Shown here: piece by piece, positions 48,754-51,171 of the stretch
Layout of the letters: each line of letters starts with the position of its first letter
Position numbering within the stretch: the stretch's first letter is position 1
From: Chitinophaga sp.
Lineage (GTDB): Bacteria > Bacteroidota > Bacteroidia > Chitinophagales > Chitinophagaceae
Assembly: GCF_019236475.1 (NCBI RefSeq)
Contig: NZ_JAFAIX010000013.1
Location: 744,001 to 808,000 of the forward strand
DNA length: 64,000 nucleotides
Direction: 5' to 3'
Notes under the pieces: generated by a model
What the model was told of the DNA's origin: nothing
Database searches by the model: none
Seen by the model: the letters and a program-made list of their open reading frames with translations, nothing else
Translations under genes and position numbers: made by a program

Positions 48754-48787
48754 AGGGAGAGATTAAAAAAATCTCTCCCTTTTTTTA
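48754..48787 (+). terminator. Rho-independent terminator of the DUF885 gene
   Basis: AGGGAGAGAT (48754-48763) pairs with ATCTCTCCCT (48771-48780), followed by TTTTTT. Confidence 0.88.
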
Positions 48788-48863
48788 TTTCGTCAAAATA
48801 TTGATTTACAAATCGTTAAAACTGCAAAAACGTTTAACTAACCTGGTAAAGGGTCTCTACATT

Positions 48864-48879
48864 TGGCATTGCTTTCGCA
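48864..48879 (+). promoter_or_regulatory. Sigma-54 type promoter of the first YDY-repeat secreted protein
   Basis: TGGCATTGCTTTCGCA has the -24 GG and -12 GC at exactly the sigma-54 spacing (TGGCA-N6-TYGCA). It lies 24 bases before ATG 48904. A near-identical element precedes the paralog at 50653. Confidence 0.6.
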
Positions 48880-48903
48880 TTACAGTAAGCAAAAGGACAG
48901 TAT

Positions 48904-49593
48904 ATGAAAAAGACAATTTTACTCATAGGTTTATTAATAGCAGGAGTTAGCATCCAACGTAGTTTTGCACAAGTGAGCGTGAATATCAACATCGGCAGTC
49001 AGCCACTTTGGGGCCCAACCGGATATGATTACGTGCAATATTATTATCTCCCAGATGTAGATGCTTACTACAACGTAGCGAATCGTCAATTTATTTATAT
49101 GGATCGCGATAGGTGGGTGTATGGTTCCGCTTTACCTGGCTATTATCAATGCGATCTGGACAGATGCTACAAAGTAGTGGTGAACGATCCGAACCCATGG
49201 ATGCGCGGTGATTACTACAGAAACAGATATGTACAGTACAGAGGTTATTATGACAGACAACGTATCATCAGAAACACCAACGACGTAAGGTATGTACAAG
49301 TACACAGATGGAATGATAGAAGGGATGACAGAAGATATTATAGCGACAATGACAACAGATGGAATAATGGAGGAACTAGCTGGAGAGTGAATCACGATCG
49401 CGATAATGGTTGGAGAGACAATGGTAGAGACAATAACTGGAATCAGAACAGAGGGAATGGCAGAGACAACAATTGGAACAACGGAAATGGACGAGATAAC
49501 TGGAACAATCAGAATGGTGGAAATGGTAGAGACAACAACTGGAGAGGAAACGATAACAGAGGCGATAATGGACACTGGCGTGATCACAGATAA
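48904..49593 (+). CDS. Secreted protein with conserved N-domain and Asn/Arg/Asp-rich tail
   Basis: The 229-residue protein has a signal peptide (TILLIGLLIAGVSIQRSFAQ) and a conserved domain (about 22-120): VNINIGSQPLWGPTGYDYVQYYYLPDVDAYYNVANRQFIYMDRDRWVYGSALPGYYQCDLDRCYKVVVNDPNPW. From about 125 on it is low complexity, dominated by Asn, Arg, Asp, Gly and Trp (RDNNWNNGNGRDNWNN). The N-domain is shared with the protein at 50653, whose tail is entirely different. Function unknown; the family occurs in Bacteroidota as exported proteins of unknown role. It sits behind a sigma-54 type promoter. Confidence 0.85.
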   Translation: MKKTILLIGLLIAGVSIQRSFAQVSVNINIGSQPLWGPTGYDYVQYYYLPDVDAYYNVANRQFIYMDRDRWVYGSALPGYYQCDLDRCYKVVVNDPNPWMRGDYYRNRYVQYRGYYDRQRIIRNTNDVRYVQVHRWNDRRDDRRYYSDNDNRWNNGGTSWRVNHDRDNGWRDNGRDNNWNQNRGNGRDNNWNNGNGRDNWNNQNGGNGRDNNWRGNDNRGDNGHWRDHR

Positions 49594-49606
49594 AATCAGC
49601 ATATAG

Positions 49607-49648
49607 CAAAAAGAAAGGCCGCTTCGATGGAAGCGGCCTTTCTTTTTG
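49607..49648. terminator. Bidirectional terminator between convergent genes
   Basis: A 19-bp perfect stem (CAAAAAGAAAGGCCGCTTC with its complement, loop GATG) gives T-runs on both strands. It lies between the tail gene and the DUF4382 gene. Confidence 0.92.
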
Positions 49649-49670
49649 CATATGTTTTTGAGTCAGCGAA

Positions 49671-50468
49671 TTATTGATGAAGCGTGATGGTACCGATGGT
49701 GGATACTTGTCCGTTAGTAACAGTTACGTTGGCCACGAGGGTATCTTTCAATACGCCATTTCCAGTAACAGATACATTGTATGCGCCTGCATTCAGACCA
49801 GCCACGAGGAAGGCGCCGGTAGCGTCAGGAATAGCGGAAGCAATGGTGTCGGAATTTTGGAGGATGAATACCCCTTTGGTAATGAGTGGCGGTAGAACGA
49901 TACCTTTAATAGAACCGCCAATCGCCTGTGTATAAGAACGGATAACTGGTTTCAGGATGTAGCCGCCGTTACCAGTAGTAACCACAGAGCGGTTAGCATC
50001 GAAGTCGATCCACAGCCGGTATTCCACACCTGCTGTCAACGTAGCCTGGATGTTTAGTTTCAATCCGGACTGTTGAGCAGAAGGGGTTTGCAATGGATAG
50101 GAGGTACCACCAACCACAACGGTATTATTGGTACCAAGAATCAGGCGGATTTGGGAAATTTTCCCCGCAGGAATACTGTAAGAAGCCAGCAAGGTATCTA
50201 TACCATTTCTGAAATTCAGGAGATTATAAACTCCTGGGCGTAGAATATGCAGTGATTGCCAACCGCTGCTAGTGTCTGTGGTACTATTTACTTGTACATC
50301 TTGAATGTCCACATTTACGGCATCGTAGTTGGCAGGCGCATCGGTAAGATAAACGCTGAATTTGGCATTTCCTCCGTTGTTGTTGTTATAGTCGTTTTTG
50401 GAACAAGCGGATAACAGCAAGGCAGTTGAGGCAACGGCTGTGGCAACAGCCAGTAATCGGTTTTTCAT
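49671..50468 (-). CDS. DUF4382 family lipoprotein
   Basis: The 265-residue lipoprotein starts at ATG 50468 (MKNRLLAVATAVASTALLLSACSKND, lipobox LLSAC). The DUF4382 domain follows: KFSVYLTDAPANYDAVNVDIQDVQVNS, LLNFRNGIDTLLASYSIPAGKISQIRLILG. A C-terminal carboxypeptidase-regulatory-like beta domain (GSIKGIVLPPLITKGVFILQNSDTIASAIPDATGAFLVAGLNAG) ends the protein. It probably sits on the outer membrane. It lies between the two paralogous secreted proteins but on the opposite strand. Function unknown. Confidence 0.9.
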   Translation of the reverse strand: MKNRLLAVATAVASTALLLSACSKNDYNNNNGGNAKFSVYLTDAPANYDAVNVDIQDVQVNSTTDTSSGWQSLHILRPGVYNLLNFRNGIDTLLASYSIPAGKISQIRLILGTNNTVVVGGTSYPLQTPSAQQSGLKLNIQATLTAGVEYRLWIDFDANRSVVTTGNGGYILKPVIRSYTQAIGGSIKGIVLPPLITKGVFILQNSDTIASAIPDATGAFLVAGLNAGAYNVSVTGNGVLKDTLVANVTVTNGQVSTIGTITLHQ

Positions 50469-50614
50469 GATATGTGATTTTAACACAATTTTATCAAGAT
50501 CTATGCCGCTCTTTTTTAATTAAATTAAATAATAATTAAAACTGTAAACATATATAAATCTATTCATTATGATTAGTAAAAACGGTACCTTTTATAGGTT
50601 TCACTGCATTTAGC

Positions 50615-50630
50615 TGGCATTGTTTTGGCA
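50615..50630 (+). promoter_or_regulatory. Sigma-54 type promoter of the second paralog
   Basis: TGGCATTGTTTTGGCA keeps -24 GG and -12 GC at the same spacing as the element at 48864; 12 of the first 12 bases differ at only one position. It lies 22 bases before ATG 50653. Confidence 0.55.
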
Positions 50631-50652
50631 TTGGTATTATTAAAATATTCGT

Positions 50653-51171
50653 ATGAAAAAGGTAATGATTTTTCTAGCGATGTTTTTATCGCTGGGTATG
50701 TTGGGAAATAGAGCGAATGCGCAGGTGAGAGTGAATATCAATATTGGAAGCCAGCCTGTGTGGGGACCTGTAGGCTATGATTACGCACAGTATTATTATA
50801 TGCCGGATATTGACGCCTACTATTCCATTCCACGACAACAATTCGTCTATTTCCATGGGAACCGATGGGTATTTGCCTCATCGCTTCCTCCATCCTATAA
50901 TTATGATCTCTACCGTGGTTACAAGGTAGTGGTGAATGATCCGGATCCATGGTTACGGGCGGATGTGTACCGTGAAAGGTACGGACATTATAAAGGCTGG
51001 TATGGCAAACAAACTATTATTCGCGATAGTCATGATGCGAAATATGCGAGAGGAAATGGTTGGGGGCGTGGTCACGGTAATGAACACGGAGATCATGGCA
51101 ATCGTGGAGACCATGGCGATCACGGGGATCATGGACGCGGACATGGACATGGTCATGATGAACAACGGTAA
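50653..51171 (+). CDS. Secreted protein with conserved N-domain and Gly/His/Asp-rich tail
   Basis: The 172-residue paralog of the protein at 48904 has a signal peptide (IFLAMFLSLGMLGNRANAQ). The same domain reads VNINIGSQPVWGPVGYDYAQYYYMPDIDAYYSIPRQQFVYFHGNRWVFASSLPPSYNYDLYRGYKVVVNDPDPW. The tail is GHGNEHGDHGNRGDHGDHGDHGRGHGHGHDEQR, rich in His and Asp and so a likely metal-binding segment. The N-domains are about two-thirds identical, the tails unrelated. A sigma-54 type promoter precedes it and a terminator follows. Confidence 0.85.
   Translation: MKKVMIFLAMFLSLGMLGNRANAQVRVNINIGSQPVWGPVGYDYAQYYYMPDIDAYYSIPRQQFVYFHGNRWVFASSLPPSYNYDLYRGYKVVVNDPDPWLRADVYRERYGHYKGWYGKQTIIRDSHDAKYARGNGWGRGHGNEHGDHGNRGDHGDHGDHGRGHGHGHDEQR

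Follow-up and report, generated by a model that had tools for sequence, protein, structure and literature searches.

Putative sigma-54 promoters before paralogous exported proteins of Chitinophaga

Introduction

Sigma-54 (RpoN) is well known in Proteobacteria, and to our knowledge its targets in Bacteroidota have hardly been tested. The published sigma-54 work on Bacteroidota that we found consists mostly of prediction (PMC12316311). Its promoters have been described by the consensus TGGCAC-N5-7-TTGCT (PMC12316311) and, for E. coli, by TGGCACnnTTnTTGC (PMC8743547). The sigma-54 regulon predicted for Bacteroidia shows an enrichment of COG0577 permeases and also contains chaperones (PMC12316311), and a 'bacterial exterior' theme has been proposed for sigma-54 targets (PMC3162934). 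In a text search, no mention of Chitinophaga turned up in the main text of the former study and none of Bacteroidetes in that of the latter, and neither is about the exported protein family described here. Among exported stress proteins controlled by RpoN, the closest precedent is ZraP of E. coli and Salmonella, a zinc-binding chaperone that depends on RpoN and ZraSR and is regarded as an envelope-stress factor (PMC4987338).

Here, we analyze a stretch of 64,000 nucleotides from Chitinophaga sp., a soil bacterium (the window), in which a sequence-only reading had noticed two matching sigma-54-type sites before two paralogous secreted proteins and had taken sigma-54 control of such proteins to be undescribed as far as was known to it. 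We found no report of such control for this family and nothing relevant in the literature on RpoN in Chitinophaga, but ZraP provides a precedent (PMC4987338).

Results

Two sigma-54-type sites before paralogous genes

The two genes and their upstream elements are arranged in the window as follows:

48754..48780, + strand: terminator-like hairpin AGGGAGAGATT/AATCTCTCCCT with a T run, at the end of the gene upstream of paralog A
48824..48838, + strand: block GCAAAAACGTTTAAC (the AAAACGTTTAAC block) upstream of paralog A, a candidate activator site
48864..48879, + strand: putative -24/-12 (sigma-54-type) promoter of paralog A, TGGCATTGCTTTCGCA, recognized by layout and ortholog conservation
48904..49593, + strand: paralog A, 229 aa, with a signal peptide, a Tyr/Trp-rich domain of about 110 aa and an Asn/Gly/Arg/Asp-rich tail
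50615..50630, + strand: putative -24/-12 promoter of paralog B, TGGCATTGTTTTGGCA, recognized by layout and comparison with the sister species
50653..51171, + strand: paralog B, 172 aa, with a Tyr/Trp-rich domain as in paralog A and a Gly/His/Asp-rich tail

The presence of two sites with sigma-54 layout before the paralogs is real: both 16-mers carry GG at positions 2-3 (-24) and GC at positions 14-15 (-12), and they end 24 bp (TGGCATTGCTTTCGCA) and 22 bp (TGGCATTGTTTTGGCA) before the ATG codons at 48904 and 50653, respectively. The description of the proteins as paralogous and secreted was equally borne out by 53% identity over 137 aa and by Sec-type N-termini in both. The pattern TGGCATTGYTTTNGCA, which covers the two 16-mers, has exactly 2 matches in the 6,476,187-base genome and 0 in the reversed control. 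The TGGCA-N6-TYGCA scan that had been proposed fits TGGCATTGCTTTCGCA, but it does not match the second site with its TGGCA at -12, and since its one match in the window compares with 0.45 expected by chance, neither site is significant on its own there. What makes them significant is their pairing, their position and their conservation. A third paralog on another contig (C4:57709) has TGGCATTAATTTGGTT 26 bp before its ATG.

Paralog A needs a promoter of its own because the terminator-like hairpin ends the upstream gene. Judging from the position of the motifs, transcription would start near 48890 for paralog A and near 50641 for paralog B. We found no clear enhancer-like palindrome upstream of the two window genes; paralog A has only the conserved AAAACGTTTAAC block, and GCAAAAACGTTTAAC is located upstream of four of the five paralog-A genes. 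Activator genes (PF00158 matches) were found neither within the window nor near the third paralog.

The window proteins have no Pfam or NCBIfam match, and no significant sequence or fold match to them was found in the PDB. An AlphaFold model of paralog B, built with 11 sequences, shows four strands and a helix at a pLDDT of 63. A role in the periplasm or at the surface may be guessed from export, the Tyr/Trp-rich domain and the tails of low complexity; that the His-rich tail of paralog B binds metal would likewise be a guess.

Conservation of the motif across homologs

Our search of 150 related genomes yielded homologs in 69, nearly all of them Chitinophaga, and 91 homolog upstream regions for comparison. 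A.GG[CT]A-N8-G site is situated near the start in 73 of these, 68 of which are distinct. The paralog A site TGGCATTGCTTTCGCA is conserved in four orthologs and belongs to this 68-sequence motif, and for paralog B the corresponding place in the sister species is taken by TGGCACCCTTTTGGCA, despite diverged flanks. The family pattern occurs 20-30 bp before the ATG in 68 of the 91 upstream regions, compared to a mean of 0.075 and a maximum of 2 in dinucleotide shuffles, a test which measures position and strength and is no independent discovery, as these 91 homologs were also the source of the pattern. The distance from motif to ATG is only 22-29 bp in most homologs.

In the 68 distinct motif-bearing sequences, G2, G3, A5, T12 and G14 never vary, and C4 and T11 hardly do; of these, the search itself prescribed GG, A and G14 and gave preference to T at positions 11-12. 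GG at -24 is shared by both window sites and by 68/68 homologs, as is G at position 14, both being required by the search. Pyrimidines at positions 6-7 and T at 17-18 are strongly biased, though the search did not require them, and flanking columns mostly stay below 0.4 bit. The 16-bp element is rigid, with a distance from GG to G of exactly 11 bp in all 68. Apparent 17-bp spacing variants (loci L006, L007 and L010) were discarded, as they are really 16-bp sites with G for C at position 15. This position is C in only 34/68 sequences and otherwise T, G or A, a departure from the sigma-54 consensus.

A k-mer search of the homolog upstream regions for shared enhancer elements returned subgroup-specific blocks only. 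The conserved blocks TTTAGCCGACAAATTT and CTATATCTCA, located directly upstream of the motif in the L096-L120 group of homologs (one Chitinophaga subclade), are candidate activator sites.

Homologs without the motif and the DUF4382 lipoprotein gene

The motif is missing in 18-20 of the 91 homologs (about 20%), including one whole Chitinophaga clade of nine (L088, L090, L093, L095, L098, L100, L102, L108 and L112; SH-aLRT 100). Upstream of this clade stands instead TGTTAAA...TTAAACC...[AC]GTCTAA, which resembles a promoter of ECF sigma factors, a likeness of letters only. About five changes of promoter state are needed on the homolog protein tree. The sequence-only reading had proposed RpoN-dependent expression of this protein family, for example in envelope stress or development; the promoter reading holds up, given the conserved motif and the presence of rpoN, but its extension to all members is not supported, as these homologs lack the motif. 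Very probably, RpoN promoters apply to most Chitinophaga homologs and not to the entire family.

A further gene and candidate promoter lie between the two paralogs:

49671..50468, - strand: lipoprotein with DUF4382 and CarboxypepD_reg domains, assigned by domain matches
50493..50508, - strand: weaker -24/-12-like site CGGCATAGATCTTGAT, 24 bp before the DUF4382 gene, a candidate third promoter of the cluster

The DUF4382 lipoprotein gene also adjoins paralog homologs in several other Chitinophaga. A -24/-12-like site is found 24-34 bp before the ATG in 10 of 27 readable DUF4382 orthologs, for example TGGCACACAACTTGCT and TGGCATACTTTTCGCC. The GTTAAAC...CGTCTAA form likewise occurs before the DUF4382 gene, namely in L247 and L248, and the remaining orthologs have neither form or a promoter that is unclear. 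A swap between RpoN and ECF-like promoters may possibly be common to both gene families.

Sigma-54 machinery and other genes with the motif

The genome encodes one copy of rpoN (PF04552, E=7.2e-54; RpoN box ARRTVAKYREQL) and ten strong sigma-54 activator domains (PF00158 matches with E below 1e-60). Since 149 of the 150 relatives have rpoN, its loss is unusable as a test.

The family pattern TGGCAYYNNNTTNGY has 22 matches genome-wide and 18 in the reversed control, and in the sister species (G016) 28 against 28. The count alone is consequently no enrichment; what stands out is where the matches lie. Six of the 22 are intergenic and shortly before a gene. Three of these belong to the paralogs, and the others precede a kinase/sigma-54-activator operon, a gene for a MacB/FtsX permease and one for a PepSY-like exported protein; the matches of the sister species include all six orthologous sites. 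Two other searches were of little use: coding-sequence matches swamped a generic sigma-54 score computed over 464 kb, and the canonical TGGCA-N6-TTGCA pattern alone gave 20 genome matches, mostly inside genes, versus 5 in the reversed control.

In the kinase/activator pair, the kinase is a HisKA protein, and its partner, a response regulator of the NtrC type, carries a Sigma54_activat domain. The motif precedes this operon in 13/13 orthologs, where the -12 element reads GC in 4, GT in 8 and GA in 1, and some 100 bp upstream lie repeats of the CCATTTTGG type that look like activator enhancers. The kinase itself (L125 10021-11097, - strand; 358 aa) has its HisKA domain and no HATPase_c match in Pfam; its orthologs (L143-L155) have open frames of about 400-427 aa, and the lack of an ATPase domain may be common to them all.

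Upstream of the MacB_PCD/FtsX permease gene (L191, L206), the paired palindromic elements GTCCGCTTTCGGAC / CGAAAGTGGACA occur in both species with small changes and probably serve as enhancers for a sigma-54 activator. Before the PepSY-like gene, TGGCATTGTTTTNG is kept in 30/30 orthologs; the site is overlapped by an ORF with a TTG start, and the gene's own ATG follows 64 bp further on. In this upstream region (L181, L217; L255-L284), TTTTTGGCATTGTTTTAGCT, located 60-76 bp before the ATG, and the block AACCCAACG...AAACCATATC are nearly unchanged across 30 Chitinophaga genomes, and this long conserved leader may take part in regulation. Elsewhere, TGGCATTGCAATTGGA (L130 3387-3402) stands 26 bp before the first gene of an HlyD-TolC-ABC-FtsX-FtsX-activator-kinase operon (L130 3429-11926), which is likely a self-regulated efflux operon.

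Discussion

We consider it highly probable that TGGCATTGCTTTCGCA and TGGCATTGTTTTGGCA are RpoN core promoters of the window genes. This sigma-54 reading is well supported because the position and spacing of the motif are conserved, because the same motif precedes the activator operon, the permease and the PepSY-like gene, and because rpoN is present. The sigma-54 holoenzyme would bind TGGCA at -24 and TT-N-G(C) at -12 and remain closed until activated, opening by one of about ten NtrC-type ATPases encoded elsewhere in the genome. Transcription would then start about 12 bp beyond the motif, some 12-14 nt before the ATG, and the outcome would be an on-demand production of small exported proteins. 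The same sigma factor would also serve the MacB/FtsX permease, the PepSY-like protein and probably the DUF4382 lipoprotein. The role of these proteins may lie in envelope stress or surface remodelling.

The halves of the window sites resemble direct repeats (TGGCATT-N4-TGGCATT and TGGCATT-N4-TCGCATT) set 11 bp, or one helical turn, apart, and could therefore be read as a classical activator or repressor site with two TGGCATT-like half-sites in the style of PhoB/OmpR that overlaps or adjoins a housekeeping promoter. We regard this as improbable, and both the direct-repeat operator and the housekeeping promoter were dropped, because the repeat does not persist in the second half, where conservation is limited to TT-N-G and where TTTTGCC or CCTTTGTT stands in many homologs. 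Moreover, no Bacteroidota -7/-33 promoter is conserved together with the motif, which mostly leaves 22-29 bp to the ATG, and the same motif stands before an activator operon. Still less credible is an ancestral start-proximal sequence that was kept by descent and has no promoter function. The homologs are related, so that the letters they share upstream are not necessarily independent, but the core is invariant while its flanks have diverged almost to randomness, and the motif is common to three paralogs of one genome and to the unrelated kinase/activator, permease and PepSY-like genes.

The half-conserved C at position 15 is more likely a local form of the -12 element than evidence against sigma-54, as the activator operons, which are the best candidates for sigma-54 promoters in the genus, are equally loose. 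Within the RpoN reading, the promoters may all be active sigma-54 promoters, each with a separate activator and without a common regulon, a refinement to which we give even chances. The enhancer-like elements do differ, with CCATTTTGG at the activator operon, GTCC-GGAC at the permease and TAGCCGACA/AAACGTTTAAC in homolog subgroups; the RpoN reading itself makes a claim about the sigma factor and not about one activator. A wider proposal, which we offer tentatively and with more doubt than belief, is a genus-wide RpoN exterior regulon of Chitinophaga with a relaxed -12 element, whose genes would have been switched repeatedly between RpoN and ECF-type promoters. Its suggested members, put forward with the same reserve, would be exported Tyr/Trp-rich proteins, DUF4382 lipoproteins, PepSY-like proteins and MacB-type permeases.

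A motif placed alike across dozens of Chitinophaga genomes provides a short target list and a genus-specific consensus, and this list offers an immediate readout for mutants of rpoN or of activators. For an unnamed exported family, an on-demand switch would be the first functional clue. The RpoN-to-ECF-like swap, if true, would make a case for studying regulatory change between sigma classes.

In comparison with known systems, the sites differ from the sigma-54 consensus in YY after TGGCA, TT at positions 11-12, a free base 13 and a position 15 that is half C across homologs. They share with sigma-54 promoters the TGGCA, the exact 16-bp layout and a T-rich -12 element that ends in G(C), and like these they occur together with activator genes. 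The E. coli glnA promoter TGGCACAGATTTCGC has the same -12 half, TTTCGC, as TGGCATTGCTTTCGCA, and there, too, the base before GC is not T. No ZraSR-like pair adjoins the genes, and the likeness to ZraP rests on no sequence relation; what the systems have in common is a small exported protein with a sigma-54 promoter, which is putative in Chitinophaga, and paralog B adds a His-rich tail. As in the predicted Bacteroidia regulon and the exterior theme, a MacB/FtsX permease carries the motif, and most motif-bearing genes encode envelope or exported proteins.
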